IMG/VR virus record: IMGVR_UViG_3300010354_020894
Span: 1-25,539 of that record
Length of the DNA: 25,539 nucleotides
Source: a virus
Direction: 5' to 3' (one strand)
Under the pieces are notes generated by a model. It did not search any database. It was not told the DNA's origin and worked only from the letters and a program-made list of their open reading frames with translations. The stretch's first letter is position 1. Each line of letters starts with the position of its first letter. Positions 2-15,630 of this stretch are shown here, piece by piece. The position numbers were made by a program, and so were the translations under genes.

Positions 2-397
2 GAAAAGCCCCTAATCGCGACTGCACATCCTGGCTACTATCAAAGACAAGGTCACAATCCCATGGGTACTCCTGAGACTGATAGTCGCTCTACAGCGTGC
101 ATACCAGGAAACAGGTACAGGCCTTGTTACTGGGCAGGTGGTTTCAATGGTGGCGAGTTCGAAGCTTTTATGAAAATGTCGAAAGAGATATCGGGAAGAG
201 TTGACCTTGATACCTCGAACAGCATCGTTGCCGTCTGGCACGACGAGTCTCACTTGAACGCATACCTCTCGGAACCACAGAATCTTGAAAATGTGAAAAC
301 TCTTGTGCCATCATATTGCTATCCTGAGAGCTGGTCTCTTCCGTTTGAGAGAAAGATTCTTGCCCTAGACAAGGACCATGCAAAAGTGAGAAATTAA
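2..397 (+). CDS. Glycosyltransferase family 6 (ABO blood-group type), C-terminal part, 5' truncated by window edge
   Basis: The frame is open from base 2, so this is the last 131 residues of a longer protein. GT6 enzymes are retaining transferases that move Gal or GalNAc from a UDP-sugar onto a galactose acceptor. The visible family signature is HPGYY (9-13), a Ser-Thr-Ala-x-Ile-Pro stretch (30-35), a WAGGFNGG block (44-51), AVWHDESHLN (77-86, with the catalytic-site Glu at 82) and KILALDKDH ending in VRN at the C-terminus. These match the C-terminal half of mammalian ABO transferases and bacterial BgtA/WbnI in order and spacing. The nucleotide-binding DXD or NXN motif lies upstream, outside the window. 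An internal ATG at 62 would remove HPGYY and is not the true start. The stop overlaps the next ATG (TAATG). Family assignment is firm. The sugar transferred is unknown. Confidence 0.9.
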   Translation, partial: EKPLIATAHPGYYQRQGHNPMGTPETDSRSTACIPGNRYRPCYWAGGFNGGEFEAFMKMSKEISGRVDLDTSNSIVAVWHDESHLNAYLSEPQNLENVKTLVPSYCYPESWSLPFERKILALDKDHAKVRN

Positions 398-1200
398 TGA
401 AGATTGGTGTTTTTGGAGCATCAGGAATGTTAGGCCACATCCTTGTGAAGCTATCAATCATGAGTGGCCTCAATGTAACTCCTCTCTCTAGAAAAAAGAT
501 GCCAGGAGATCTTTGTGAGATACCTGTCGAATATTTTGAGGCCTCAAATTACGATTTGAAATCTCATGATTTCGACTATGTTATCAACTGCTGTGGACTA
601 ATCAAACAAAGATCGACAAGCAACTCTGCCCTCTATGAGATTAATCGAGAGTTTCCAAAGAGACTTGCGTCAAAATACGGAAAAAGACTGATTCACATCA
701 GCACTGACTGCGTCTTTTCGGGAAAAAGAGGGATGTATGTCGAAAGTGACGAAAAGGATGCACAGGACAATTATGGGCTTTCAAAGTCCGGCGGAGAAGA
801 GATTGATGCGAGAGTCTTAAGGACCAGCATTATTGGAACTCATGCTGAAGATTGCAACGGACTTCTAGAGTGGGCGAGGAGCCAGAGAAACAGGTCAGTT
901 GAGGGTTATATTGATCATTTCTGGAGTGGAGTTACTACGCTCGAGCTGTCAAAGCTGATCATTGATGAAATTGAAAACATCGAATCACAAAGACTGAGGC
1001 ATGTATACTCCAATAGGGTTTCTAAGTTTGATGTTTTGAATGTTATCAACGATGAGTTTGATCTTGGCATGAGCATCAAGGTTGCATCAATTGGCCTGAT
1101 AGACAGAAGTTTATCAACAATCTTTGAAGACAATAAGATTAGAAAGAATCTTCGAAACCAAGTGCAAGAACTAAGAGATTTTGAGAGGATCAAGCTGTGA
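397..1200 (+). CDS. RmlD/WbvR-like NAD(P)-dependent nucleotide-sugar 4-reductase (extended SDR)
   Basis: 267 residues with a Rossmann glycine motif GASGMLG (7-13), the STD triad region (Ser102, Asp104), and the catalytic Tyr126 and Lys130 of YGLSK, all as in dTDP-4-dehydrorhamnose reductase (RmlD). These cytoplasmic enzymes reduce the C4 keto group of a 4-keto-6-deoxy nucleotide sugar. No RmlA, RmlB or RmlC is in the window. A UDP-HexNAc 4,6-dehydratase of the PseB/WbvB type lies 1.7 kb downstream, so a WbvR-like role (reducing UDP-4-keto-6-deoxy-L-HexNAc) is at least as likely as dTDP-rhamnose synthesis. It lacks the cupin domain found in CapF/WbjC. The start overlaps the GT6 stop and the stop overlaps the next GTG. 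Fold and class are confident. The substrate is inferred. Confidence 0.82.
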   Translation: MKIGVFGASGMLGHILVKLSIMSGLNVTPLSRKKMPGDLCEIPVEYFEASNYDLKSHDFDYVINCCGLIKQRSTSNSALYEINREFPKRLASKYGKRLIHISTDCVFSGKRGMYVESDEKDAQDNYGLSKSGGEEIDARVLRTSIIGTHAEDCNGLLEWARSQRNRSVEGYIDHFWSGVTTLELSKLIIDEIENIESQRLRHVYSNRVSKFDVLNVINDEFDLGMSIKVASIGLIDRSLSTIFEDNKIRKNLRNQVQELRDFERIKL

Positions 1201-2165
1201 TAAAGATATTTGCAATTCATTTCAATAGGCCTGACTTTATTCTTCTGCAAAACAAGACTCTACGAAAGTTTGTAAAAGAAGACTTTGAGTATGTTGTGGT
1301 CAACAATGCAAGTCAACCAGAGATAAGAAACGTCCTGGAACAGGCTGCTAAAAGCATTTCAATCAGGACAATTCAGGTATTCGAAAACATTGACCAACAT
1401 GCTGCAGCAGCATATCCAGGATATCATCACTCCATTGCAATGAATCAAATCCTCAGAGACGAGATCAAAAACCAGAATGACATATGTGTGATTCTTGATG
1501 GAGATATGTTTCTATTGAAGCCTTACTCATTTGAAGAAAAGATGAAAGGGGTCCAGCTTCTCGGTGGACTGTTGCAGCAAAAGGGAAGATACTGGCTCAC
1601 ACCTGTTGCTATTGGAATGAAGCCATTTGAGCTTCCTGACTTTGACTCCATCAACTTGATTGGTTCACACATTTTTAACATGGAGCCACATGACAAGTCT
1701 AAAGATGTGTCTTTCTACCCAAGAAAGGTCGGAGACAATTACGTCTTTGATTGTCCGGCATGCACCGGTGCTGTTTCCTGTAGCGATGAAAATCACATAA
1801 GGCTTGACACCGGTGGAGAAATATACACTTACTTGAGAGACCATCCTGATGTCAAGGTGAAAAGAATGTCAACCACATCCCAGATCAAGAATGACTCTAT
1901 TCACAAATTTCCTGAGCTTACAAAGCACGGATACACAGAAGAATACCATTTTGAGATCTACGATGGAAGTTTCTTGCACTACTGCAGAAGTAGCAATTGG
2001 GATAGAAAAAATTTCGACTTTCATCAAAGAAAGACACGTGTCCTTGTCGACATTGCAGAGTCTGTGATGAGAGGTGAAACTTCTTTGGACTCAGATTACA
2101 CCCTTGATGACAATGAGTGGAGCGGGTGGCCTCTCGAAGTAATGAAAACACATGGAGTAATCTGA
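1197..2165 (+). CDS. Putative GT-A-fold glycosyltransferase
   Basis: 322 residues starting at GTG inside a GTGA overlap with the preceding stop. The N-terminus (IFAIHFNRPDFI) and the first 100 residues alternate strands and helices like a nucleotide-diphospho-sugar transferase. An acidic metal-binding motif DGD at 101-103 (in ILDGDMFLLKP) fits the DXD of GT-A enzymes. The central region has paired cysteines (CPACTGAVSC) that may be structural. A C-terminal HxC-type stretch (FLHYCRSSNWD) is probably part of the active site. I cannot place it in a CAZy family. It sits between a nucleotide-sugar reductase and a methyltransferase, consistent with a role in glycan assembly. Confidence 0.65.
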   Translation: MIKIFAIHFNRPDFILLQNKTLRKFVKEDFEYVVVNNASQPEIRNVLEQAAKSISIRTIQVFENIDQHAAAAYPGYHHSIAMNQILRDEIKNQNDICVILDGDMFLLKPYSFEEKMKGVQLLGGLLQQKGRYWLTPVAIGMKPFELPDFDSINLIGSHIFNMEPHDKSKDVSFYPRKVGDNYVFDCPACTGAVSCSDENHIRLDTGGEIYTYLRDHPDVKVKRMSTTSQIKNDSIHKFPELTKHGYTEEYHFEIYDGSFLHYCRSSNWDRKNFDFHQRKTRVLVDIAESVMRGETSLDSDYTLDDNEWSGWPLEVMKTHGVI

Positions 2166-2872
2166 TGCAAAAAATTAGCGATTTTTCCGACAAAGTTACG
2201 AAGTTTCGATACTTCAAGAACACCGATTTTCGAGTAGACGGAATCAGGTTTGGAAACTGGGGCTCAAGGCCTTATGAGTACTTTTGGGTCGCTGCTGTTG
2301 AGAATGCTGAAGGAAAAGACATTCTCGACATTGGAACAGGAACTCCAACTGAGCACAATTGGCATGAATTTGTCGCCTATCATGTCAAGCCTAAGTCATA
2401 TCTTGGAATAGATTTTGATGACAGGCTCAAGAAAGACTGCATTTTGCTCGAGAACCATAGGGTGGTTTGGATGGATGCATCTTCTTTGGACGCACCAGAC
2501 GACTCATTTGATATCATTTACTCAATATCAACATTTGAGCATATTGACAGCGTAGAAAAGTTCATGGAAATAATGAGTGAGTGCAGGAGAGTATTGCGAC
2601 CTGGTGGCAAAATGATTGTAACTCTTGATGAATATTGGGACAATAGAATAACCGACTCCCTTCCATGGAACGAGCTTGAGAAGGCTTATGTGAGAGGAGG
2701 AAAGAACTTTATCGATAGATCATATGGGATGGTTGACTTTGCAAGTGACATAGCAGAAATGTTCCGCCCTGTTGACGAGGTGCCAGTAAAGAAAAATGCG
2801 GATGACTCCCTCCTGTACAGTAGAGTCTACAACGATTGCATCAGTTACGGTGTATTTGAAGTGATAAAATAA
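2165..2872 (+). CDS. Class I SAM-dependent methyltransferase (Methyltransf_11-like)
   Basis: 235 residues from the ATG at 2165, which overlaps the preceding TGA (TGATG). An in-frame ATG at 2117 would overlap the upstream gene by 49 bases and is less likely. Motif I is LDIGTGTP (54-61), followed by the SAM-ribose acidic loop GIDFDD (81-86), the DASSLDAPDDSFD segment, and motif post-I/IV FDIIYSISTFEHI. RRVLRPGGKMIVT gives the usual late strand. This is the Methyltransf_11 layout common among sugar O- or C-methyltransferases in polysaccharide clusters. The substrate is not determinable from sequence. A glycan acceptor is inferred from the neighbours. Confidence 0.82.
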   Translation: MQKISDFSDKVTKFRYFKNTDFRVDGIRFGNWGSRPYEYFWVAAVENAEGKDILDIGTGTPTEHNWHEFVAYHVKPKSYLGIDFDDRLKKDCILLENHRVVWMDASSLDAPDDSFDIIYSISTFEHIDSVEKFMEIMSECRRVLRPGGKMIVTLDEYWDNRITDSLPWNELEKAYVRGGKNFIDRSYGMVDFASDIAEMFRPVDEVPVKKNADDSLLYSRVYNDCISYGVFEVIK

Positions 2873-2896
2873 AGAAAGGTTGATATCCTTATCTCC

Positions 2897-2901
2897 AGGA
2901 G
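2897..2901 (+). promoter_or_regulatory. Ribosome binding site that selects a TTG start at 2907
   Basis: AGGAG lies 5 bases before an in-frame TTG at 2907. The alternative TTG at 2880 has its only purine run (AAAGAAAGG) directly abutting the codon, a poor spacing. The 2907 start also puts the Rossmann glycine motif about 9 residues from the N-terminus, as usual for the family. Confidence 0.6.
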
Positions 2902-2906
2902 AGCTT

Positions 2907-3854
2907 TTGAAGAACGAGAGCATTCTAATTACTGGCGGCGCAGGTTTTCTCGGAAAACAGATCATCTCAAAGTCCTATGAAGACAACGAGATCACGGTGT
3001 ACTCCAGAGACGAGGCAAAGCACTATTTCCTAAAGAAGAAGTACCCAAAAGTTAGATTCGTTGTAGGAGACGTAAGAGACTTCGACAGGCTAAGGAGGGC
3101 ATGTCAGGGACAGACAATTGGAATTTTTGCTGCAAGTCTCAAGCAAATAGAGGCATGTGACGAGAATCCTGAGGAGGCCTCGAAAACCATCATTGATGGA
3201 GCCTTCAACAGTAGAAGAGCTGCCGAAGACTGTCAGCTCAAGGCAGCCTGCTTCATAAGCTCAGACAAAAGTAGGGCTGCAACTACCGTGTATGGAGCAA
3301 TGAAATACGTTGCAGGTGAGTCTTTCATACTTCATGCGGGTAACTCACCGAGACTGACAACCGCAATCTATGGAAATGTTCTCAACTCCACAGGAAGCAT
3401 CATTCCTCTCATATGGAATGCAATCAAGAATAGGAAGTCACTACAGCTCTACTCAGATAAGATGACAAGGTTTCTTCTTCCTGTTGATGATGCAGTATCA
3501 TTGATCACGTCGAGCCTGAAGAGTGAACTCACAGGTGTGAATATCGTTCCCAAGATACCAAGTGCAAGAATCAAGGACATCTTTGAGATATATGCAGAGA
3601 ATTTTGGTCTTCGATACGAGATGGCGGCTCCCAGAGTTGGTGAAAAAATTCACGAAGTGATGGCATCACCTGAAGAGATCAGGAGAATGCAATATCGTCA
3701 AGATCTCGGATTCTACACCATCGACCCAAGGAAGGAATACAATCAACTTCAATTTCCCAATGATGAGTATTCATCAAGAGATCATTGTGTGTCGATTGAA
3801 GACCTTGATAAGCTCTTAAGGCAATCAAATTACTTCGAATCAGCGAACGAGTGA
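2907..3854 (+). CDS. UDP-HexNAc 4,6-dehydratase, PseB/FlaA1/CapE type (Polysacc_synt_2)
   Basis: 315 residues from the preferred TTG start (324 from the alternative TTG at 2880). The N-terminal Rossmann motif is TGGAGFLG. The catalytic set Asp120-Lys121 (in SSDK), Tyr129 and Lys133 (YGAMK) has the Asp+9=Tyr spacing of H. pylori FlaA1 (Asp132/Lys133/Tyr141). Enzymes of this soluble, inverting family convert UDP-GlcNAc to a UDP-2-acetamido-2,6-dideoxy-4-hexulose. This is the first step towards pseudaminic acid, L-FucNAc, L-RhaNAc or L-QuiNAc. No PseC-type aminotransferase is in the window, but an RmlD-like reductase lies upstream. That combination favours a deoxy-amino sugar of the L-RhaNAc/L-QuiNAc kind over pseudaminic acid, as inference. 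The C-terminal SDR domain appears complete. Confidence 0.85.
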   Translation: MKNESILITGGAGFLGKQIISKSYEDNEITVYSRDEAKHYFLKKKYPKVRFVVGDVRDFDRLRRACQGQTIGIFAASLKQIEACDENPEEASKTIIDGAFNSRRAAEDCQLKAACFISSDKSRAATTVYGAMKYVAGESFILHAGNSPRLTTAIYGNVLNSTGSIIPLIWNAIKNRKSLQLYSDKMTRFLLPVDDAVSLITSSLKSELTGVNIVPKIPSARIKDIFEIYAENFGLRYEMAAPRVGEKIHEVMASPEEIRRMQYRQDLGFYTIDPRKEYNQLQFPNDEYSSRDHCVSIEDLDKLLRQSNYFESANE

Positions 3855-3857
3855 AGC

Positions 3858-4724
3858 ATGAAGATAATTGTTTGGGGCTTGCCACTTCATTCTCACACAC
3901 ATAGCTACATCCATCATGCTTTTGCAAGGGCTTCAATGGCAATGGGCTATGAAACATGTTGGGTTGAGAATTCTGAAAAGTCAAATGAGTTAGTGAGACA
4001 TGATGACATAGTCATATCATGCGGTGTGGCTGATTCATTCCTGTTGTATAAGAAAGGTGTCAATTATGTCCTTCACAACTCCGATAGGGATGACCTTCGA
4101 GACGGAAGTCATCTAAATCTACAGGTGTACACGACGGATGTCTTGAACAGAGAAACAGAAAATCTTGGTGACTTGACTTTCTGGCAATCATCGAACAGGA
4201 CTCTTTATCAGCCTTGGGCGACTGATCTTCTTCCTAATGAGATAGCTTCCGTCACCCCTGTAAATGCGTCTAATCAATCAAACGAGGTCATCTGGATTGG
4301 ATCAATTATGGGTGGAGAGCAAGGAAACTACGAAGAAATTTCAAGATACGCAAGTCTTTGTGACATGAAAGGAAACGTCTTCAAGGTTGCAAGAGGAACA
4401 TCAATCGAAGGAAACATCGAAGCAATCAGAATGAGCAGGCACTCACCAGCTATTCAGGGAAAGTGGCAAGTAGAGAAAGGTTACGTCCCATGCAGAATCT
4501 TCAAGAACATTAGCTATGGCAGGATGTCATTGACGAATTCAAGGACAGTGGCAGACCTTCTGGAGCTGGATTTTTGCAAGGATATCGATGAGCTTTATGA
4601 GAAGTCTGAGTCTGTTGCTCTTGGATGCGAATCATCTATCACAAGAAGCAAGATGAAACTAGTGTCCGATAAGCACACGTACATCAACAGGCTCGAGAAG
4701 ATCATGAGATTTGTGAGATCCTAA
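3858..4724 (+). CDS. Putative GT-B-like glycosyltransferase
   Basis: 288 residues. The N-terminus MKIIVWGLPLHSHTHSYIHHAF looks like the first Rossmann half of a GT-B enzyme that locates and loads a substrate. The second half has a strand-plus-glycine motif VIWIGSIMGG (144-153), then HSPAIQGKW and a segment YVPCRIFKNISYGRMSLTNS that resembles the C-terminal donor-site region of CgeB-like glycosyltransferases, where a 'captured tail' is kept at the interface. I found no DXD and no E-x7-E motif, so the family is uncertain. It starts 3 bases after the upstream stop and its own stop overlaps the next ATG (TAATG). It is most likely a transferase of the surrounding glycan pathway. Confidence 0.5.
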   Translation: MKIIVWGLPLHSHTHSYIHHAFARASMAMGYETCWVENSEKSNELVRHDDIVISCGVADSFLLYKKGVNYVLHNSDRDDLRDGSHLNLQVYTTDVLNRETENLGDLTFWQSSNRTLYQPWATDLLPNEIASVTPVNASNQSNEVIWIGSIMGGEQGNYEEISRYASLCDMKGNVFKVARGTSIEGNIEAIRMSRHSPAIQGKWQVEKGYVPCRIFKNISYGRMSLTNSRTVADLLELDFCKDIDELYEKSESVALGCESSITRSKMKLVSDKHTYINRLEKIMRFVRS

Positions 4725-5419
4725 TGATATCTGTGATTATTGCCGCCAAAGATTGTGAGAAATGGATTCAAAGAACTGTTCAAAGTTTATTAGAACAGGA
4801 ATTCCATGATTGGGAGTGTTTGATATCTGTCAACGGTTCATCCGATAGAACCGAAGAAATTGCAAGGTCTTTCGATGATAGAAGATTCAGAGTGATTACA
4901 AGCGATATTCCAAACAAATCTCTTGCTGTGAATAGAGCTCTAGTCAACTCATCAAGGGACTTGATTTGCATACTTGATGCGGATGATTTGTGGCACCCTA
5001 CAAAGTTAGGCAAACAATATCTCAGTATCATCGATTCCAAAATCGATATCCTTGGGACTCAAATGGTCTACATTGATGAAAATGAAAATGAGATTATGAA
5101 TACACCGCATTTGCCCACGGATCACGATTCATGTGTTTCAAGTCTCATGAAAAGAGAAAATCCAATAGCGAACTCATCTGTAATGTACAGGAAATCGCTG
5201 CATGACAAGGTAGGATACTATGATCCTGAGATGTTTGCCGTGGAAGATTATGATATTTGGATGAGATCCATGAGGGCTGGACTGAGATTCTCAAATCTAA
5301 AAGAAAAGCTCCTGTTTCACAGGCTTCACGGTCAGTCTCATTACAATTCCACTAATAAGCAGCAAATTTGCAAGCATCTTGTTGATGAGATCAACTTCTT
5401 CTTTGAAAGGAACAAATGA
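4724..5419 (+). CDS. Family 2 glycosyltransferase (GT2, GT-A fold)
   Basis: 231 residues with a textbook GT2 start MISVIIAAKD, the VNGSSDRTEEI nucleotide-binding loop (37-46), the metal-binding DADD at 85-88 (ILDADDLWHP), an acceptor-side ANSSVMYRK strand, and the catalytic-base pair Glu174-Asp175 in VEDYDIWMR. These inverting enzymes add a sugar from a UDP-, GDP- or dTDP-donor to a glycan. It has no membrane segment, so it acts in the cytoplasm or peripherally at the membrane. Length is at the short end for the family but the core is complete. Coupled to both neighbours by TAATG and ATGA overlaps. Donor and acceptor unknown. Confidence 0.9.
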   Translation: MISVIIAAKDCEKWIQRTVQSLLEQEFHDWECLISVNGSSDRTEEIARSFDDRRFRVITSDIPNKSLAVNRALVNSSRDLICILDADDLWHPTKLGKQYLSIIDSKIDILGTQMVYIDENENEIMNTPHLPTDHDSCVSSLMKRENPIANSSVMYRKSLHDKVGYYDPEMFAVEDYDIWMRSMRAGLRFSNLKEKLLFHRLHGQSHYNSTNKQQICKHLVDEINFFFERNK

Positions 5420-6102
5420 TGAAAGTTTACACGTTTTACTCAAAAAGTCACGAATCTCTCTTCCGAAGACTTGAAGACTCAATAACAAAGAATTGTAAAG
5501 ATCTTGTCCTGGTACCAGAGATTATAGAGCAAGAATGCCCCTCAGGTGAGTATATGAATGCCGGGTGGGGAGAAAGTATGAAAAAGAAACTGTCAGTAAT
5601 TTTGACGGCAATAGAGAACGGTGAAACATTCATTCACTCAGATGCTGACATTGTGTTTCTTAAGGACGCAAAGAATGAGCTTGTCACTGAACTGGGTGAC
5701 TATGACATAGCTTTTCAAAATGATGGCGGTACTGGTGGAACTTGGTACTGTATGGGGTTTTTTATCTGTAGGCCTTCTGCCAGAATCAAAGATCTCTTCA
5801 TGTATGTGAAAGACAGAATTGACATGTTTGAAGGAAATGACCAATTAGCCATGAATAATGCGATAAGTGACTTTAGAAACCCCAATCCTGGAGAAGGGTG
5901 GAAAGACATCAAGTACAAGCATCTTTCAAGCAGATTTTTCACATATGGACTTCATAGACCTGTGAATAACTTGCCGTGGACAGGACAAGCATTCGGTGTT
6001 CCAAGTGATATCATCACGTTTCACGCAAATTGGACCAAGGGCATAGAAAATAAGCACAAAATAATAGATTACGTTACAAGATCCTTGGAGATCAACAAAT
6101 GA
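5416..6102 (+). CDS. Nucleotide-diphospho-sugar transferase (PF03407-like)
   Basis: 228 residues. The start is the first of two adjacent ATGs (5416 and 5419), with AAAGGAA just upstream; either could be used. The DAD motif at 76-78 (FIHSDADIVFLKD) and the following DIAFQNDGG and GFFICRPSAR segments are characteristic of the Nucleotid_trans family, whose members include plant RRA/RGXT and bacterial and viral homologues. The aromatic-rich tail with TFHANWTKG matches the conserved His-x-Asn/Asp-x2 element near the C-terminus of GT-A transferases. Soluble; role in glycan assembly inferred from context. The specific sugar is unknown. Confidence 0.72.
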   Translation: MMKVYTFYSKSHESLFRRLEDSITKNCKDLVLVPEIIEQECPSGEYMNAGWGESMKKKLSVILTAIENGETFIHSDADIVFLKDAKNELVTELGDYDIAFQNDGGTGGTWYCMGFFICRPSARIKDLFMYVKDRIDMFEGNDQLAMNNAISDFRNPNPGEGWKDIKYKHLSSRFFTYGLHRPVNNLPWTGQAFGVPSDIITFHANWTKGIENKHKIIDYVTRSLEINK

Positions 6103-6920
6103 ACTTGATCACCCAAAACTGGGTTCAGTTCAGTCAGGTCGATGATCCAATTAGAACTGAAGAAACTATCTTCTATCAACTGCAAAATGTTGATCTGGGA
6201 CTTCCATTGGTGTCTTTGCCTCTTGCATATTCAATCAACAGGTTTGGAGTTGACGCCACGCAAAGAATGATAGACGAGATCGAAAAAAGAGAAAAATGCA
6301 CCAAGATATACGTGTGCCAGCACATACTTGTGAGTAGGCTAAATTTCGGAGAAAACTTAGTTTTCACCCCTCACACTGTAGAGAGCGACAGTTTTCATTT
6401 TGTTCCGCACTACAACCCAGCATTTCAAACGAAAAGAGACTTCTTAAGGTTCTCTGACAGAAATTGGAATTTTTCTTTTATGGGAGATTTCAATACAAGT
6501 CAAATTAGAGAAGAGATAGGGTCGAAATTATCCGGAATATGCCCGGTACAGCAGACAGGAAAGTGGTTTTTCTCACATGATTTTGCAACTCAATCAATCT
6601 TAAAGTCAAACTATCAAAAATTGCTTGAAGATACAAAGTTTCCTCTTTGCCCGCAAGGCACTGGTCCATCGACATTGAGATTCTTTGAAACCCTATCATC
6701 AGGTGGATTTCCAGTGATATTCAACGATATCAAGCTCCCGAAAGACATTCGAAAGTACGTCATCTCATCTTCAATAGGAGATATTGAAGGAGGAAAAATT
6801 ATGTCACAATTGAAGAAATTCGACAATAATATTCAAGAAGAAATGATCGAAATGTACTGGTCAAGGTATTCAAACGAAAAACTTTCTCTTTCAATCATTG
6901 AAAAGGTAAGGCAAGCATGA
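6099..6920 (+). CDS. Exostosin-like (GT47) glycosyltransferase
   Basis: 273 residues. The C-terminal donor-binding block FPLCPQGTGPSTLRFFE with LSSGGFPVIF (181-208) reproduces the exostosin/GT47 signature, in which a Cys-Pro-x-Gly loop is followed by a Glu that contacts the nucleotide sugar (here Glu197) and a Pro-Val-Ile strand. The N-terminal half (HILVSRLN, VFTPHTVESDSFHFVPHYNP) provides the acceptor-side Rossmann domain. Eukaryotic members act on heparan sulfate or plant cell wall. Bacterial and viral members are poorly characterised. No signal peptide or membrane anchor, so cytoplasmic. Overlaps its upstream neighbour by ATGA. The fold is likely; the sugar is unknown. Confidence 0.72.
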   Translation: MNLITQNWVQFSQVDDPIRTEETIFYQLQNVDLGLPLVSLPLAYSINRFGVDATQRMIDEIEKREKCTKIYVCQHILVSRLNFGENLVFTPHTVESDSFHFVPHYNPAFQTKRDFLRFSDRNWNFSFMGDFNTSQIREEIGSKLSGICPVQQTGKWFFSHDFATQSILKSNYQKLLEDTKFPLCPQGTGPSTLRFFETLSSGGFPVIFNDIKLPKDIRKYVISSSIGDIEGGKIMSQLKKFDNNIQEEMIEMYWSRYSNEKLSLSIIEKVRQA

Positions 6921-7657
6921 ATGCAAATCATGATATCATGAGAGAACTAGATGAATTCTCACATCTTTACTCACAAAGGCCAATATTCGACAATTCTGGA
7001 GGAATGAAGTCTCCTCACATGTTTGGGCTGTACAGGTGGCTAAAAGATCACCAGCCTGAACTGATTATTGAAAGCGGAATCTGGAAGGGACAAGGAACAT
7101 GGTTGCTAAGAAAGACCTGTCCAAGTTCAAGGATTATCTCCATTGATGTGAACATGTCAAACAGGGTCTTTGTAGACGAAAGAGCTTCCTACTACGACAA
7201 AGACATCACAACGCTAGATTTGAAATCTTTGGTTAGAAATTTCGATCAAGATAAGGTGCTTGTTTTCTTTGATGATCATCAAAATTTTGACAATAGAGTT
7301 GACTTTTTGATCGAATCAAAGGTTCGACACGTAATATTCGAGGACAACTATCCGACAGGTCAAGGTGACTGTGTTTCTCCAAAAAAGCTTATAGAGGCAT
7401 CAGAGAGAAACGAAGAAATACAGGAAAAGTACGCTAAATTGTCTGCTGAAAGAGTAAGGTCCATCAGGAACAAAATAGAAAAGTACACCGAACTGCAGCC
7501 CATCTTTGTAGATTCAATGACAAGATGGAAAGTTCCTTGGAGTTATGAAACCGTGAAGCCGCTGTTGAGCCATGATGATTCTCATGCTTATAAAGATTTC
7601 TTTGATGAAAGGTTTGATTACACATGGATTTGTCACTTGGAGCTAAAAAATGAGTAA
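6917..7657 (+). CDS. Class I SAM-methyltransferase-like protein
   Basis: 246 residues. A glycine-poor motif I, IIESGIWKGQGT (50-61), is followed by the acidic ribose-binding strand ISIDVN (74-79), FFDDHQNFDNRVDFL (118-131) and VIFEDNYPTGQ (139-149). This resembles the cephalosporin-hydroxylase/CmcI and rhamnosyl O-methyltransferase type of Rossmann methyltransferase, in which a DDxH-type pair binds a metal for catalysis. A charged helical segment (about 160-195) follows, probably a lid or oligomerisation arm. The C-terminus ends eight bases past the next start, so the genes are coupled. Methyl transfer to a sugar is inferred from context. Catalysis is not proven. Confidence 0.62.
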   Translation: MNANHDIMRELDEFSHLYSQRPIFDNSGGMKSPHMFGLYRWLKDHQPELIIESGIWKGQGTWLLRKTCPSSRIISIDVNMSNRVFVDERASYYDKDITTLDLKSLVRNFDQDKVLVFFDDHQNFDNRVDFLIESKVRHVIFEDNYPTGQGDCVSPKKLIEASERNEEIQEKYAKLSAERVRSIRNKIEKYTELQPIFVDSMTRWKVPWSYETVKPLLSHDDSHAYKDFFDERFDYTWICHLELKNE

Positions 7658-8240
7658 AGAAAGGCTTGGAACCGATTACGGTGGGTGGGTTGTTGAATTA
7701 GACTTCATCAATGATGGCGATGTAATCATCGATGCAGGACTTGGAGAAGACATAAGTTTTCTTGAAGAGCTTGCAAAGATAAAAAACGTCAAGATCATTG
7801 GTATTGACCCGACTCCAAAATCTCACTCCTACGTTGAGAGCAGGAACTTAAAGTCTTTGTCACTTCATAAGTTGGCAATTGCTCCAAAAGGAGTAGAATC
7901 TATTTCTCTGTATAAGAACACGAACCCAAATCACGTTAGTGAAAGCTATCTGCAAGATCACGGGTCAGTAGGGCAGGCATTTCATACCGTGAAATGCACC
8001 TCGTTTGCTGACCTAATCCAGGAGCATAATCCTTCACTCATAAAGATGGATATCGAAGGAGCAGAATACGACGTTCTTCAAGAATGCATCGGAGTCAAGC
8101 AAATCTGTGTTGAGTTTCATCATCATTGCCTTAAGACGCGAGACATAAACGACACGAATAAGATGGTTAAGATGTTAAGAGATGCTGGTTATGATGTCAT
8201 AGCTTCAAATGGCATTGAATACAGCTTCTTGCTAACGTGA
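7650..8240 (+). CDS. FkbM-family SAM methyltransferase
   Basis: 196 residues. The hallmark FkbM motif IKMDIEGAEYDVLQ sits at 131-144, preceded by the SAM-binding strand VIIDAGLGEDISFLEEL (25-41) and the GIDPTP ribose loop, and followed by CVEFHHH. FkbM enzymes O-methylate sugars or polyketides; phage and cyanobacterial relatives are common in surface-glycan clusters. Start chosen at ATG 7650 because GGAG lies just upstream and the frame overlaps the preceding stop by eight bases. Soluble. The methylated position is unknown. Confidence 0.85.
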   Translation: MSKERLGTDYGGWVVELDFINDGDVIIDAGLGEDISFLEELAKIKNVKIIGIDPTPKSHSYVESRNLKSLSLHKLAIAPKGVESISLYKNTNPNHVSESYLQDHGSVGQAFHTVKCTSFADLIQEHNPSLIKMDIEGAEYDVLQECIGVKQICVEFHHHCLKTRDINDTNKMVKMLRDAGYDVIASNGIEYSFLLT

Positions 8241-8244
8241 TGAA

Positions 8245-9555
8245 ATGTGCAGCTTCTTAGTAACAAGTAAGAGAAATTTCAACTTGGAGATGGTCAATCA
8301 CTTCATAAAGAAGAGAGGGCCTGATCTTACGTCCTGTTTAGAAGACGATCAGTTTTTCTACATTCACAATCTCCTGTCAATAACAGGAGATCTCACAAGC
8401 CAACCGATCAAAAATGACTCTATTACTCTTGTCTACAACGGGGAAATCTACAACTATCGAGACTTTGGAGAATATCAGTCAGACGGACTTTGCCTGATCG
8501 ATCTTTACGAAAAGTTTGGAACCGAAGCATTTCAGATGGTAGACGGAGAATTCGCAATAGTTCTCCATGACAAGAAAAGGAAAAAGATCTACCTTTGCAC
8601 CGATACTTTTGGAACAAAACCCTTGTTCTACTCTACGTCAAAAAGTGACTTTGGCGCAAGTTCATATCAGTCATCCTTGCTTTTGTTAGGATTTGAGCAG
8701 GTTATTAAGTGCAAACCAAATCAAATTACTGTAATAGACCAAACTACATTGTCTGTTTGTGACGAGATTCCTCTCTATACTTTTGACCTGACTCAACATA
8801 AGAAAACGTATGATGATTGGGATGCTGCTTTCGTTAGCAGCGTTGAAAAAAGAATCAGAGGGCTCAGACACAATCTTGTAGTCCCAATGAGTAGTGGCCA
8901 CGATAGCGGCCTGATTTGCTGTGTACTGAATGAAATGAATGCAGATTACGTTTCAATCTCAATTAGGGGAAAGGAAAATCAGGATGTTCTGAATAGAAGA
9001 TTCGAGATCAAACGCGGTGTAAAGTACATTCATGATAAGATCTCATCTTTTGACATCGAGAAAATTAAGGAATCTTTTTCAAGTGATGTAGAGAAATTCT
9101 TCTACGGCCCAGTGCCAGGCACTCATATTCAAGACGGATTTAATGATCAAGGAGCGATCGGTCTTTACTTTGTTCTCAAGGAATCAAGGGAAAAGAATAA
9201 TTGCAAAGTGATCCTCTCTGGTCAGGGTTCTGACGAGATGATGTCGACTATAAAAGAGTATGGGTTTCAAACGACAAATCCGATTCCATTTCCTGATGAC
9301 CTGACGAATGTCTTTCCTTGGGGAAACTTTTACTATGGCTCACAATCTTCTTATTTGATGAAAGAAGAGTGCGTAGCAGGCTCTCTTGGAATGGAAACCA
9401 GATATCCATTTCTCGATAGGAAACTTGTTCAAGAATTTTTGCAACTCGACTCCAGCCTGAAAAATGCAAAATACAAGGCTCCGATTGAGCATGCATTCAA
9501 AAAGAGGAACTATCCATTTTACGAAGGTAAGATGGGTTTCAATATCGGACTATGA
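8245..9555 (+). CDS. asnB: Asparagine synthetase-type glutamine amidotransferase (AsnB/WbpS-like), shortened C-terminus
   Basis: 436 residues. The ATG at 8245 is followed by TGC, exposing the Ntn nucleophile Cys2 after Met removal. The glutaminase domain has RGPD (24-27), NGEIYN (65-70) and DGEFA (100-104). The synthetase domain has a variant PP-loop SSGHDSG (216-222, family SGGxDSS), LSGQGSDE (324-331) and ETRYPFLD (384-391), so both half-sites are present. The usual reaction turns aspartate, glutamine and ATP into asparagine. Homologues in O-antigen clusters, such as WbpS, instead amidate sugar uronic acids. Residence among glycan genes, together with a nucleotide-sugar dehydrogenase 3.9 kb away, makes uronic-acid amidation plausible. 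The protein stops right after KMGFNIGL, about 100 residues earlier than E. coli AsnB. No recognisable AsnB tail appears in the other frames. Confidence 0.87.
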   Translation: MCSFLVTSKRNFNLEMVNHFIKKRGPDLTSCLEDDQFFYIHNLLSITGDLTSQPIKNDSITLVYNGEIYNYRDFGEYQSDGLCLIDLYEKFGTEAFQMVDGEFAIVLHDKKRKKIYLCTDTFGTKPLFYSTSKSDFGASSYQSSLLLLGFEQVIKCKPNQITVIDQTTLSVCDEIPLYTFDLTQHKKTYDDWDAAFVSSVEKRIRGLRHNLVVPMSSGHDSGLICCVLNEMNADYVSISIRGKENQDVLNRRFEIKRGVKYIHDKISSFDIEKIKESFSSDVEKFFYGPVPGTHIQDGFNDQGAIGLYFVLKESREKNNCKVILSGQGSDEMMSTIKEYGFQTTNPIPFPDDLTNVFPWGNFYYGSQSSYLMKEECVAGSLGMETRYPFLDRKLVQEFLQLDSSLKNAKYKAPIEHAFKKRNYPFYEGKMGFNIGL

Positions 9556-9576
9556 ATCACTTTACAGGGAAAATCA

Positions 9577-10335
9577 ATGCCGTCAATATCTGAGGAGTGT
9601 CCTCATTATGGAGATGCTTGCGATCTTGCATCTCGCGATGATGAATTCTTTTCGACATTCAAGAGAAATAACTTCTACAGGGCTGTTCTAGAACATGTGT
9701 CAGAGGAACAGGGACAAATGTATTATGATGAAATTGATGAAAACTCTCTTATGAAGAAAGAGATTCACAAGTTTTCAATTAATGACTTTTATGGACTGCC
9801 TATTGTTCACGATTTTGAGTTTGGAACATTCTCACCTACGACACTGAGATATGCGAAGGTCCTCAATGACATATCTAAGCTGGTTGACATAAACGATTCA
9901 AGCATAGCCGAAATAGGCGCTGGATATGGAGGCCAATATCTTGTGACGAGGCAACTATTCAAACCAAAGAGATATTCTTTCTTTGATATAGACCCAGCAA
10001 TCAGGCTCATCAAGAAGTACACAAGGATCTCAAGATCAGATGATATCGATCTCGATTTTTACGTCTCAAACTCAAGCATTGAGATGAAGAACTACGATCT
10101 AGTAATTAGCAACTATGCAATCTCTGAGTGTGAGAAAGACATTCAGGACTATTACATTTCTAATGTGATAGCAGGTTCCAAAAGAGGATACATCACTTTC
10201 AATCACATGAGAGGCTATTCTATTGATGACTTTATTACAAGGCTAAAAGATCTTGGTAAGGTCCCAAGCGTTGGTGAGGAGAATCCTCAAACTTCTCCTC
10301 CTGGCTCAAGAAAAAATTTAATCATTACTTGGTGA
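9577..10335 (+). CDS. Putative sugar O-methyltransferase (EIGAGYGGQ family)
   Basis: 252 residues. The motif EIGAGYGGQ (112-120) is the signature of a recognised 'putative sugar O-methyltransferase' family found in surface polysaccharide loci. It is followed by SFFDIDPAI (the SAM-ribose acidic loop) and LVISNYAISECEKDIQDYY, a motif IV-like segment. A family-typical N-terminal helical region of about 100 residues with several acidic patches precedes the fold. Starts 21 bases after the asnB stop with AGGG upstream. No partner module is fused. The acceptor is unknown. Confidence 0.78.
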   Translation: MPSISEECPHYGDACDLASRDDEFFSTFKRNNFYRAVLEHVSEEQGQMYYDEIDENSLMKKEIHKFSINDFYGLPIVHDFEFGTFSPTTLRYAKVLNDISKLVDINDSSIAEIGAGYGGQYLVTRQLFKPKRYSFFDIDPAIRLIKKYTRISRSDDIDLDFYVSNSSIEMKNYDLVISNYAISECEKDIQDYYISNVIAGSKRGYITFNHMRGYSIDDFITRLKDLGKVPSVGEENPQTSPPGSRKNLIITW

Positions 10336-10339
10336 GGAA

Positions 10340-10912
10340 ATGCAGCACTATTATCATTCAATTGGCGAAAATTGGTTCACATACCCTGGATTTTATGCAT
10401 CTGTTGTGAGAGAGTTCGAATCAGGATCTAAATTCGTAGAAATAGGATCCTGGAGGGGAAGAAGCTCTTGCTTTCTCGGGGTCGAGATTTTCAACTCCGG
10501 TAAAAGCATAGAGCTTCACTGCGTGGATACCTGGTTAGGCTCTGAGGAGCACCAACCAGGTGGAGAATTTCCTGAGGGGTATCAGATCCTTAAAGATGAC
10601 GGTCTTTACAAAGAGTTCATAAGCAACATACAGCCAATAAAGGACATCATAAAACCGATTAGATTGACATCTATAGAGGCTTCTTCTCTGTATGAGGACG
10701 AAAGTTTGGATTTCGTTTTTCTTGATGCATCTCACAAGTATGAAGATGTCAAGCAAGATCTGGTCGCTTGGTATCCAAAGGTAAGGAAAGGAGGAATTTT
10801 TGCCGGTCATGACTATCCATCATGGCCTGAGGTTGTGAAAGCAGTCGATGAATTTTTCCCTCAAAAAGATTTTCATTCAAATGAACTTTGTTGGATTCAT
10901 AGAAAAAACTGA
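10340..10912 (+). CDS. Class I SAM-dependent methyltransferase (Methyltransf_24-like)
   Basis: 190 residues. VEIGSWRGRSSCFL (33-46) is motif I in the variant with GSWxGxSS, HCVDTWLGSEEH (60-71) holds the acidic ribose contact, LDASHKYEDVKQDL (128-141) is the conserved D-x-S-H-x-Y-E-x-V segment of the family, and GGIFAGHDY (151-159) ends the sheet. The DxSH/HDY pair is the metal-binding set of catechol-O-methyltransferase-like enzymes. Starts 4 bases after the upstream stop with GGTGAGGA as ribosome binding site and ends in a TGATG overlap. Small soluble methyltransferase, presumably for the same glycan. Confidence 0.78.
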   Translation: MQHYYHSIGENWFTYPGFYASVVREFESGSKFVEIGSWRGRSSCFLGVEIFNSGKSIELHCVDTWLGSEEHQPGGEFPEGYQILKDDGLYKEFISNIQPIKDIIKPIRLTSIEASSLYEDESLDFVFLDASHKYEDVKQDLVAWYPKVRKGGIFAGHDYPSWPEVVKAVDEFFPQKDFHSNELCWIHRKN

Positions 10913-11499
10913 TGAACTCTCCAAAATCAGGAATATCCATAGGATGGAGACCAGGAAATCATGCAGGCATAATGGGATGTACCGAAATGCCATGGCTTGT
11001 GATGGAATCCATTGATTTCATTTTTGAAAGAATTAACAAGGAATCAACCGTATTCGAATACGGAAGCGGATCCAGCACATTTTGGTTTTCTAAGTTGGTA
11101 AGCAAAGTCTATTCAGTAGATCACGATCCAAATTGGTTTTCTCAGATGAATAACCTGATGTCTTCTCAAAAAATTTCAAATGTTGATTTAAGGCTTTCAA
11201 GTTGTGAGATGAGATATGTTCTCGATCATGATTCTGAGGTTGAGGAGCAATACGAGAATTATTCAAAGATGATTTCTAATCTTGAAGTGAAAGAATTTGA
11301 TGTTATTTTGGTCGACGGAGTCACAAGGTCAATGTGCATCAAAGAGTCTATTTCTCACCTCAAAAAAGGAGGAATGTTGGTTATTGACAATGCTGAGAGG
11401 CCAGCATATTTCAAGGCAATAGAGTCAGTTCCCTCCAGTTGGAAACGATACGAATTTTCTTGTGCCGTAGACACTACTTTGATTTTCATAAAGGAATAA
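10912..11499 (+). CDS. Rossmann-fold methyltransferase-like protein
   Basis: 195 residues. Starts at ATG in a TGATG overlap. Motif I is FEYGSGSSTFWF (48-59), then VYSVDHDPNWF (66-76) as the acidic SAM-ribose contact, FDVILVDGVTRSMCI for the motif-IV strand, and GGMLVIDNAERPAYF near the end. This matches the Methyltransf_24 group. The N-terminus has a Trp-rich, Pro-containing stretch that suggests substrate contact. It forms a tandem pair with the preceding gene but the two share little identity beyond the fold. Function by context: glycan methylation. Confidence 0.65.
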   Translation: MNSPKSGISIGWRPGNHAGIMGCTEMPWLVMESIDFIFERINKESTVFEYGSGSSTFWFSKLVSKVYSVDHDPNWFSQMNNLMSSQKISNVDLRLSSCEMRYVLDHDSEVEEQYENYSKMISNLEVKEFDVILVDGVTRSMCIKESISHLKKGGMLVIDNAERPAYFKAIESVPSSWKRYEFSCAVDTTLIFIKE

Positions 11500-11505
11500 A
11501 ATCAA

Positions 11506-12441
11506 ATGAAAAGAAAAATCCTCACCACAGGCACCACAGGGCTTCTTGGAAGTGAGATAATTGCACTTGAAAGCACAGCAATCGGAATATCATCCAAAGA
11601 ATGTGATCTCACTGAGACTAACCACGCCATCCTTACACTTGAAGACGGTCAAGTTGATACAGTCATTCACTGTGCAGCAAGAGTCGGAGGGGTGAAGGCC
11701 AACACTGACTACGTTGCTGACTTCTTTGACGACAATGTGAAGATGAACATGAACGTTCTTGATGCGTGTCGTGAGAGGAATCTGAAGCTTGTCTCTGTGC
11801 TCTCGACCTGCATCTATCCGGACGCTCCCTACGTGAAGTATCCACTCACGGAGGATCAGCTTCACATGGGTCCTCCGCATCCATCCAACTTCGGGTATGC
11901 ATACGCCAAAAGAATGCTTGAAGTTCAGTCACGTGCTTATCGCCAACAGCACGGATGCAACTTCATCTCGGTCATTCCGAACAACCTCTACGGTCCAAAC
12001 GATAATTACGACCTGAATAGTGGCCACGTAATTCCTGCGCTTATACGCAAGTTTCACGAGGCAATCGTAAGCAAGAAAAGAGAAGTGATTATCTGGGGAT
12101 CAGGTAAGCCACTTCGCGAGTTCACATTCGCAAGAGATGCCGCAAGTATCATCCTGTGGCTTGCTCAAAACTATGACGGAGAATTACCTGTCAACATAGG
12201 AAATCCACAGCAGGTTTCAATCGAAAACTTGGCTCTCACAATTTCTGGTGAAATGAATTATCAAGGAACAATCAGGTTTGACACTAGCAAGCCAGACGGT
12301 CAGTTTAAGAAGCCTTCATCGAATGAATATCTGAGATCTCTCGGATGGAAAGGCGAGTATACGTCTCTTCGTGAAGGCCTTAAGGAGACGATAAAGTCAT
12401 TTAGAAGTAGATACCCAAATGTTCGTGGTGTTACCATATAG
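11506..12441 (+). CDS. fcl: GDP-L-fucose synthase (GDP-4-keto-6-deoxymannose epimerase/reductase)
   Basis: 311 residues, full length for the family. Rossmann glycine motif TGTTGLLG, signature AARVGGVKAN (57-66), Ser100/Cys102 in LSTCIYPD, catalytic Tyr131 and Lys135 (YAYAK), and His174 in SGHVIPALI. The relative spacings Ser-Cys (+2), Tyr-Lys (+4) and Lys-His (+39) equal those of E. coli Fcl (Ser107, Cys109, Tyr136, Lys140, His179). It converts the Gmd product to GDP-L-fucose in the cytoplasm with NADPH. Gmd is encoded 3 bases downstream, so the two form a functional pair. Hand counts give about 50% GC in the first half and 42% in the last 260 bases. Confidence 0.93.
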   Translation: MKRKILTTGTTGLLGSEIIALESTAIGISSKECDLTETNHAILTLEDGQVDTVIHCAARVGGVKANTDYVADFFDDNVKMNMNVLDACRERNLKLVSVLSTCIYPDAPYVKYPLTEDQLHMGPPHPSNFGYAYAKRMLEVQSRAYRQQHGCNFISVIPNNLYGPNDNYDLNSGHVIPALIRKFHEAIVSKKREVIIWGSGKPLREFTFARDAASIILWLAQNYDGELPVNIGNPQQVSIENLALTISGEMNYQGTIRFDTSKPDGQFKKPSSNEYLRSLGWKGEYTSLREGLKETIKSFRSRYPNVRGVTI

Positions 12442-12444
12442 CAT

Positions 12445-13419
12445 ATGAAAACAGCTCTTATAACTGGCGTAACAGGTCAAGATGGAAGCTATCTTGCCGA
12501 ACTTCTTCTAGAAAAAGGCTATAAAGTAGTAGGAATGAAGAGGAGGACGTCTCTTTTAGCTACGGACAGAATTGACCACCTTCTCAAGCACTCGAACTTT
12601 CAGCTTGTCTATGGTTCAATGAACGATGCAGGATCTTTCTATCGTCTATTTGCCAATCAGAAGTTCGATGAAGCCTATAATCTTGCCGCCCAATCTCATG
12701 TTCGTGTCTCATTCGAGGTTCCTGAGGAGACGGTAGACGCCGTAGCAATGGGACCTCTCCGGCTATTGGAATGCATTAGGACCATGCAACCAGGCTGTCG
12801 CTTCTATCAGGCTTCCTCCTCAGAGATGTACGGTGATAACCCAGAACACCCACAGAACGAGCAGACTCGACTCATGCCGGCGTCTCCATATGCCTGCGCC
12901 AAGGTCTTTGCCCATGGTCTCACTCGCAACTACAGAGAGAGTTACGGCATCCACGCATCTTCCGGAATCCTCTTCAACCACGAGAGCCCTCGCCGAGGTG
13001 AGACTTTCGTCACCAGGAAGATCACGCTTGCGGCAGCCCGGATCAAGCTCGGTCTACAGGACAAGATTGCCCTCGGCAATCTCGATGCACTTCGAGACTG
13101 GGGCTATGCCAAGGACTATGTAGAGGCAATGTGGCTCATGCTACAGCAGGACAGGCCTGATGACTACGTTGTCGCCACCGGTGAGACACGAACGGTCCGT
13201 GAGTTCTTGAACGAGGTTTTCGATATTGCAGGACTTGATGTTGACAGGCATTTGGTAATTGATGAGAGACTAAAGAGGCCACATGAAGTTCCATGGCTTG
13301 AAGGAGACTGTTCAAAAGCTAAAGATCGTCTTGGATGGTCACCAAAGACAACCTTCAAGGGACTTGCAAGACTAATGTACGAACACGACCTGAAGGTCGA
13401 AATGGAGAAATTGAGATGA
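12445..13419 (+). CDS. gmd: GDP-mannose 4,6-dehydratase
   Basis: 324 residues. [20 protein letters not shown] at 7-26 is the family-specific N-terminus. NLAAQSHV, the catalytic Ser125-x-Glu127 (SSSEMYG) and Tyr149/Lys153 (SPYACAK) match E. coli Gmd Thr133/Glu135/Tyr157/Lys161 in spacing. [17 protein letters not shown] (177-193) and [20 protein letters not shown] complete the signature. It makes GDP-4-keto-6-deoxy-D-mannose, which Fcl then reduces to GDP-L-fucose. GC content rises from 38% near the start to 52-62% over 12721-13080 and falls to 40-45% at the end. This hump is unlike its neighbours and hints at mosaic origin. The stop overlaps the next ATG (ATGA). Confidence 0.95.
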
Positions 13420-14832: not shown

Positions 14833-15630
14833 ATGTCAGACTTTCCAACAGGCAAGCCACATGTATCCTACTCGGAGGTCAGCACATGGCACTCCTGTGG
14901 GCACAAGCACAAGCTCACCTACATCGACAAGGTAGAGACTCCGGAGCAGGATTGGTCGCATGCCGACTTCGGAAAGCACGTCCACTCCGGAGTCGAGAAC
15001 TACCTGAAGACCCGTGTGATGGACATTCCCGCAGTCGTCAAGCTCATCGAAGATGACTGGTCAGCAAAGAATCGTCCTGAAGTTGAGAAGTGGTCCAAGT
15101 GGGCTGTCAACATCCTCACAGACTTCCCAGGCTGGCTGGATACTGAACATCCCGGGTGGGAACTACTCGGTGCTGAGCTTCCCCTCTACGAGGACATTCC
15201 TGAAGAGGAGACAATCAAGTTCAAGGGATTCGTTGACTCCATAGTCCGTGTTCCTCTCAATGATGAGAAGACAAAGTGGAAGGTCTGGATCCTGGACTGG
15301 AAGACGGGACCTGCCGGTGGATGGCGCAGGGACAAGCTTGAGAATGAACTTGTTCTTGCCCAGCTCTGGCTCTATAAGGCATATCTGCTTCGCAAGCTTG
15401 AACTTCAGAGCCGTGATGTAGGATGTGCCTTCGTTGTCCTAAAGAAGGGAGCAAAGCCAGGCTCGACAATCGCTCGATATGACATCTCGGTAGGGCCAAA
15501 GCCTATGGAGAAGGGTGAAAAGATGGTCAAAAGCATGGTTTCTGGAGTAAGGAAAGGCAAGTTCTTGAAAAACAGGTATTCATGTGAATGGTGCCCCTTT
15601 AAGGGAACACAGCACTGTACCAGTATTTAA
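14833..15630 (+). CDS. PD-(D/E)XK nuclease, Cas4/AddB-like, with predicted 4Fe-4S cluster (PDDEXK_1)
   Basis: 265 residues. Nuclease core: Gly47 to His51 (FGKHVH), Glu115 (LGAELPL), Asp135 (FKGFVDS), then Asp155-Trp-Lys157 (ILDWKTG) and QLWLY (177-181). These are the RecB-type motifs I to QxxxY. One N-terminal cysteine (Cys22) and a C-terminal Cys251-x2-Cys254-x7-Cys262 array match the Fe-S cluster layout of Cas4, AddB and Dna2. It probably processes DNA ends in recombination or replication in the infected cell. No cas1, cas2 or helicase is nearby, so CRISPR adaptation is not indicated. It is GC-richer (53-62% in sampled 60-base blocks) than the gene before it (42%) and is flanked by gaps. 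This suggests separate acquisition. Confidence 0.88.
   Translation: MSDFPTGKPHVSYSEVSTWHSCGHKHKLTYIDKVETPEQDWSHADFGKHVHSGVENYLKTRVMDIPAVVKLIEDDWSAKNRPEVEKWSKWAVNILTDFPGWLDTEHPGWELLGAELPLYEDIPEEETIKFKGFVDSIVRVPLNDEKTKWKVWILDWKTGPAGGWRRDKLENELVLAQLWLYKAYLLRKLELQSRDVGCAFVVLKKGAKPGSTIARYDISVGPKPMEKGEKMVKSMVSGVRKGKFLKNRYSCEWCPFKGTQHCTSI

Follow-up and report, generated by a model that had tools for sequence, protein, structure and literature searches.

A predicted dehydratase-reductase gene pair for a UDP-6-deoxy-L-HexNAc in the surface-glycan island of an uncultivated phage

The IMG/VR virus record IMGVR_UViG_3300010354_020894, analysed here over its entire 25,539 bases and referred to as the window, is one piece of the larger genome of an uncultivated virus; it carries tail genes of a contractile-tailed phage. 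Two genes in its left half, a dense glycan island with all genes in one direction, code for a predicted inverting UDP-N-acetylglucosamine (UDP-GlcNAc) 4,6-dehydratase and a reductase of the short-chain dehydrogenase/reductase (SDR) type. The two are likely to be a dehydratase-reductase pair for a UDP-6-deoxy-L-N-acetylhexosamine (UDP-6-deoxy-L-HexNAc) in a phage surface-glycan island. Here we present the evidence for this assignment, together with the pathways that compete with it.

In the proposed pathway the dehydratase would remove water from C4/C6 of UDP-GlcNAc and invert C5, giving a 4-keto-6-deoxy-L sugar, and the reductase would then convert this sugar to UDP-N-acetyl-L-rhamnosamine (UDP-L-RhaNAc), following the chemistry of Mg534 and Mg535. 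These steps were demonstrated for Megavirus (PMC10117803, PMC4691112; accessible parts of both) and are predicted for this phage. The predicted product is probably some UDP-6-deoxy-L-HexNAc; L-RhaNAc as the specific end point has a roughly even chance. Which sugar results is set by the face of reduction and by C3, and the exact sugar is unreadable from sequence. The genes of the pair are:

397..1200, + strand: RmlD-like SDR 4-reductase of 267 amino acids (aa), with a GxxGxxG start, STDCVF and a YGLSK active site, cupin-less (Pfam, NCBIfam, motifs, AlphaFold model with confidence score pLDDT 94.3)
2897..2901, + strand: AGGAG, which probably serves the dehydratase gene as ribosome-binding site (read from the sequence)
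2907..3854, + strand: phage-type inverting UDP-GlcNAc 4,6-dehydratase, 315 aa when read from TTG 2907 (profiles, D120-K121, Y129xxxK133, AlphaFold model with pLDDT 90.8)

The dehydratase

Both open reading frames (ORFs) are intact. The dehydratase frame is open from TTG 2880, with the likeliest start at TTG 2907, five bases after AGGAG. Counted from TTG 2907, the residues Asp120-Lys121 and Tyr129, on which the original prediction of a PseB/FlaA1-like dehydratase was based, are reproduced exactly; from 2880 they become 129, 130 and 138 (Y138xxxK142). The Pfam family is Polysacc_synt_2. The best curated match is the PseB model (TIGR03589) with 197.4 bits, below its cut-off of 407.75. The CapE/FnlA/WbjB model (TIGR04130) gives 127.7 bits, below a cut-off of 730 that also shuts out true CapE-type proteins in this data set, such as bacterial L208 (536) and a Staphylococcus aureus CapE fragment (528).

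A profile built from phage sequences only (the window and 26 viral relatives) places the giant-virus dehydratase Mg534 (4TQG) first among solved proteins with 198 bits, followed by PseB (161) and CapE (151), and the alignment to 4TQG 11-317 runs without a large gap. The single sequence gives 125 bits for WbjB, 124 for CapE and 56 for the retaining enzyme PglF. In a fold search with the dehydratase model the inverting enzymes score Z 34.7-37.1, a range within which they cannot be told apart, and retaining PglF scores Z 30.

The active site is YxxxK and not the MxxxK of the CapE type. Among viral sequences, YxxxK is found in all 77 of the window type and in 10 of 11 others; among bacterial sequences, all eight of the window type have it, versus 5 of the 41 others (35 with M, 1 cut). 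The latch of CapE comprises residues 287-309 (PMC3699295), and the stretch matching it, around SRDLNY, is missing from the window's dehydratase; Mg534 is likewise reported as latchless in the accessible part of PMC4691112. In a quick tree of 64 of the 136 sequences, a long branch with full support separates the window, together with 15 viral and 7 bacterial sequences, from the rest. Judged by these sequence features, the enzyme is an inverting dehydratase of a tyrosine-type, latchless kind that forms its own clade. Four of the eight bacterial members are Patescibacteria by record title (Parcubacteria, Paceibacterota and similar) and one is Prochlorococcus. Eight bacterial contigs (L216, L217, L226, L227, L237, L243, L244 and L257) carry a phage-type dehydratase with a reductase nearby.

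The reductase and its pairing with the dehydratase

The reductase at 397-1200 has RmlD_sub_bind as its best Pfam family (59 bits) and no cupin match, which bears out the RmlD-like, cupin-less reductase originally predicted. Several scores support a dedicated cupin-less SDR, as predicted from sequence, and not RmlD proper. The curated RmlD model (TIGR01214) gives 57.3 bits versus a cut-off of 224. Against a profile of 35 bacterial pair reductases, those within 4 kb of a dehydratase, the protein scores 226 bits; it scores 58 against a profile of four RmlD proper, which are bacterial genes above the cut-off whose genomes encode reductases of the window kind as well. Held-out RmlD proper score 168-477 to the profile of the other three. 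In the reduced set, each of the 58 viral reductases matches the pair-reductase profile with a higher score than the RmlD profile, and RmlD above the TIGR01214 cut-off was found in 4 of 30 genomes searched, all four bacterial.

The model of the reductase has the RmlD fold, with 1vl0 as the best solved structure (template modelling score, TM, 0.78; 20% identity); the fold search separates neither RmlD from the family of the window's reductase nor their substrates. In a tree of 117 reductases three RmlD proper stand apart from the rest and the window and its nearest relative fall outside a 19-row viral clade of pair reductases; this tree is weak alone, with the RmlDs as outgroup and CapF joining on a branch of length 10. 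The motif HxWxG, present in 94 of 106 rows and in none of four RmlD, was considered as a family mark and not used, as the bacterial rows had been fetched by it. It occurs in just 27 of 55 distinct reductases reached via the dehydratase, most of the others having W[NS]G with a different first residue.

The two families are closely associated. Viral contigs were scanned with the dehydratase alignment, and the counts refer to the best 80 of at least 283 relatives (at least 597 stretches). The reductase is present in 71 of these 80 dehydratase loci and adjacent in 60; with repeats removed it is present in 53 of 60 distinct loci and adjacent in 43, in 42 of them 3' of the dehydratase. In the same count, made as a control, Gmd was found in 22 loci (4 adjacent), Fcl in 8 (none adjacent) and UGD in 8 (1 adjacent). 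The co-occurrence of the two families exceeds chance. A further point for the pairing is that Gmd in the window has its own reductase partner, the Fcl-like gene.

In the reverse scan with the reductase alignment, for which 80 of 200 viral relatives were kept, the dehydratase is present in 50 loci (41 adjacent) and a 2-epimerase in 11. A scan of viral contigs for close relatives with the reductase alone gave none. Bacterial contigs, many of them short, were scanned by a reductase motif, so that the sample is not neutral; among 80 bacterial reductase loci, 48 have the dehydratase, 44 the 2-epimerase, 21 both and 9 neither. Some bacterial loci without a window-type dehydratase (L214 6566-10015, L230 6606-10059) have another SDR, an RmlC-like cupin, a reductase of the window kind and a WecB-type 2-epimerase in a row. 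This arrangement is apparently an alternative amino-sugar route with a separate cupin, which means that the reductase family serves more than one such route.

Several observations weigh against the proposed pair. In the window the two genes are separated by two ORFs and stand in reversed order. L005, the nearest relative found (257-kb record), likewise has them reversed and separated by a single ORF, and L013 has the reverse order. Neither dehydratase nor 2-epimerase is present in 22 of the 80 viral reductase loci, so that other partners are possible for the reductase family. The dehydratase sequence alone ranks PseB (147 bits) above Mg534 (145), Mg534 drops below WbjB and CapE when one CapE-type row is included in the profile, and by fold it comes sixth. 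An approximately unbiased (AU) test with 55 rows, in which the reductases of the window and L005 were held together with RmlD, gave no rejection (p 0.58), and neither tree nor AU test fixes the place of the reductase within its family firmly. Finally, bacterial PseB-type enzymes yield the same keto sugar for pseudaminic acid.

Partner enzymes and competing pathways

The window contains no WecB/WbvD-type 2-epimerase (PF02350), no DegT/PseC-type aminotransferase (PF01041), no RmlC (PF00908) and no RmlA-type nucleotidyltransferase (PF00483), and the model for RmlB gave weak matches from Gmd, Fcl and the dehydratase. This agrees with the original prediction, which had listed PseC, the Rml genes and a WbvD-like 2-epimerase as missing. 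Because the window is 25.5 kb of a larger genome, these absences say nothing on the whole phage. Related IMG/VR records were searched over their full length.

PF02350 was found in 6 of 35 such records (3 of 14 and 3 of 21), one of which (G022) had been picked for its reductase alone. The other 29 lack it, among them the 257-kb record of L005 and five more of 178, 207, 178, 173 and 154 kb, and the same search was positive in 11 of 14 control genomes. The 2-epimerase lies in 3 loci of the 60 distinct viral dehydratase loci; one phage, L008, has dehydratase, 2-epimerase and reductase consecutively. For most records the encoded route, as far as gene content tells, ends after the reductase.

These counts bear on the best surviving alternative, a full pathway to UDP-N-acetyl-L-quinovosamine (UDP-L-QuiNAc) or N-acetyl-L-fucosamine (L-FucNAc) with the 2-epimerase encoded in another part of the phage genome or provided by the host. 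The gene order of L008, the 2-epimerase in 21 of 48 bacterial dehydratase-reductase loci and the fragmentary nature of the window speak for it; its absence from the 29 whole records makes such a pathway unlikely. The original prediction had proposed a UDP-L-RhaNAc or quinovosamine pathway. Its first half is retained, with an inverting dehydratase paired with a dedicated non-RmlD reductase and Mg534-Mg535 as precedent; the quinovosamine half is not upheld.

A second alternative, considerably less probable, takes the dehydratase as PseB of the pseudaminic acid pathway, with PseC and the later enzymes outside the window and the reductase unrelated. It fits the tyrosine-type active site and PseB as the best curated model, but the PseB cut-off is clearly missed and the recurrent neighbour of the dehydratase is the reductase, not an aminotransferase. 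A full or nearly full DegT gene (PF01041) was found in 3 of 20 records (G002, G009 and G021) and short pieces in 2 more; that of G002 lies immediately 5' of an RmlC gene, about 6 kb from the dehydratase. NeuB (PF03102) is present in 1 of the 20 records, and neither NeuB nor DegT was found in the nearest relative.

Least probable, if by little, is that the reductase is RmlD for dTDP-L-rhamnose, or a GDP-sugar reductase, and merely shares the island with the dehydratase; Pfam family, solved fold and an AU test that leaves the RmlD group attachable next to it agree with this, but the score is far below the RmlD cut-off, neither RmlA (PF00483) nor RmlC (PF00908) is present in the window or the nearest relative, relatives with RmlC have a separate RmlD-like gene beside it, and Gmd adjoins Fcl. 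In G002 (contig 31493-33633) and G014 (contig 33825-35693) this RmlC gene and its own RmlD-like gene are separate from the dehydratase-reductase pair. The counter-case set out in the original prediction, a reductase clustering with RmlD and rmlABC genes nearby, is thus answered on the side of gene content and cut-off and less so on that of the tree.

Island context, distribution and known systems

The other genes of the island considered here are:

2..397, + strand: family 6 glycosyltransferase, C-terminal part, cut by the record end (profile matches)
1197..2165, + strand: 322-aa protein without family assignment, between reductase and dehydratase (53% identical counterpart at the same position in L005)
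2117..2872, + strand: class I methyltransferase (Pfam; no counterpart at this spot in L005)
11506-12441, + strand: Fcl-like gene (NCBIfam Fcl 256 bits, below the cut-off of 500)
12445-13419, + strand: Gmd gene (NCBIfam Gmd 440 bits, above the cut-off of 415)

The right part of the window is baseplate-wedge-like, with matches to PHROGs 261, 43 and 219. Much of the gene order is kept in L005, which has the family 6 glycosyltransferase, the reductase (51% identity), the counterpart of the 322-aa protein, the dehydratase (69%), Fcl (72%), Gmd (90%), a nuclease (80%), two glycosyltransferases and then tail genes. The nuclease, of the PD-(D/E)XK type and located at 14833-15630 in the window, is a replication-type gene in an odd place amid glycan genes. 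At the corresponding places L005 has neither the methyltransferase nor the 8 kb of glycan genes found at 3858-11500 in the window, and this comparison points to fast gene turnover in the island. A T4-type portal was found in 9 of 13 records tested, that of L005 among them; psbA, looked for as a mark of cyanophage hosts, was found in none of the 13. The family 6 glycosyltransferase occurs elsewhere in 70 phage records, 64 of which are Synechococcus or Prochlorococcus phages.

A glycosyltransferase of the island probably places the sugar. The 322-aa protein, which had no match in Pfam, NCBIfam, PHROG or PDB, is a candidate by its DGDMF stretch and by its position between reductase and dehydratase in both the window and L005. 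The target would most likely be the host envelope (O-antigen or capsule, excluding rival phages) and less likely the virion, by analogy with the work on cyanophage clusters discussed below.

A dehydratase search of 50,697 phage records gave one uncultured huge phage and two Staphylococcus-phage-labelled records with a CapE-type gene in a capsule locus; a second dehydratase query gave one further uncultured phage and two Listeria-labelled records at 22-26% identity. The two Staphylococcus-labelled records, OR844989.1 (L016, 'Staphylococcus phage SA 1306 Kay') and OR849864.1, hold a run of CapE-, CapF-, CapG- and CapP-like genes that corresponds to the S. aureus capsule locus, and are probably host DNA filed as phage.

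Judged by titles and openings of abstracts, with few subscription journals covered, no literature on phage N-acetyl-L-rhamnosamine was found besides a giant-virus review; a search for phage UDP-GlcNAc 6-dehydratases and auxiliary metabolic genes, covering equally few subscription journals, found none. The chemistry is known; the clade and its phage setting were not found described. By analogy with some giant viruses, the phage pair probably makes a rare L-amino sugar from UDP-GlcNAc for a surface glycan. A broader proposal, held tentatively and at slightly less than even chances, is that many large uncultivated phages carry a two-gene cassette dedicated to UDP-L-RhaNAc, that its dehydratases form a separate tyrosine-type, latchless clade found also in a few contigs of Patescibacteria and other bacteria, that the route mostly stops at L-RhaNAc, with no 2-epimerase, and that some phage "rmlD" genes are reductases of this pathway.

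Phage glycan islands are currently read via generic labels; reductase and dehydratase both match a single broad PHROG, 'nucleotide-sugar epimerase'. Surveys of auxiliary genes in phages list rmlD and infer rhamnose from it, as in the accessible part of PMC12911398. If the pair makes UDP-L-RhaNAc, part of these rmlD calls would mean an amino sugar made from UDP-GlcNAc, with different consequences for the host surface, for phage exclusion and for immune-like recognition between bacteria and phages. Both enzymes of the pair are small and soluble.

Among known systems, the capsule or lipopolysaccharide (LPS) clusters of cyanophages and jumbo phages (P-SSM2, S-SCSM1) resemble the island in that structural genes lie next to glycosyltransferases (one of family 6 included), methyltransferases and Gmd/Fcl, and are believed, according to the accessible parts of PMC7824862 and PMC9602691, to change the host's envelope in defence against rival phages. 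No window-type dehydratase was found in the cyanophage records of the phage collection. PseB/FlaA1 shares the DK...YxxxK active site and the inverting fold with the window's dehydratase (33% identity over the fold), whereas the latter is below the PseB cut-off and has a reductase, not PseC, as partner. In CapE-CapF-CapG of S. aureus and WbjB-C-D of Pseudomonas aeruginosa (UDP-L-FucNAc) an inverting dehydratase is likewise followed by an SDR reductase; CapE has MxxxK plus latch and CapF a cupin (the CapF frame in L016 is 373 aa), in contrast to the YxxxK, latchless dehydratase and cupin-less 267-aa reductase of the window.

The WbvB-WbvR-WbvD route of Vibrio cholerae O37 reportedly uses a dehydratase and a reductase for UDP-L-RhaNAc and L-QuiNAc, and is said to share the proposed chemistry and the cupin-less reductase with the window, which has no 2-epimerase. 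That it uses exactly such a dehydratase, as originally predicted, is doubtful, since Vibrio is counted among the genera with the MxxxK-plus-latch enzyme (PMC3699295) and the window's enzyme is of the YxxxK, latchless kind.

The precedent for the pair is Mg534-Mg535(-Mg536) of Megavirus chilensis, a UDP-L-RhaNAc/L-QuiNAc pathway in a virus glycan cluster, in which Mg534 (323 aa), an inverting dehydratase, and the adjacent Mg535 (270 aa), an SDR reductase, make UDP-L-RhaNAc (PMC4691112, accessible part). The two dehydratases differ in sequence (about 30% identity) and in setting, a giant virus versus a phage, and phages of the window type usually have no 2-epimerase gene; they are alike in the active-site tyrosine and in having no latch. 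The reductase of the window is likened to Mg535 by size, family and gene context, not by sequence, and agrees with the description of the WbvR/Mg535 type as a cupin-less SDR of about 270 aa with YxxxK, encoded together with an inverting dehydratase.

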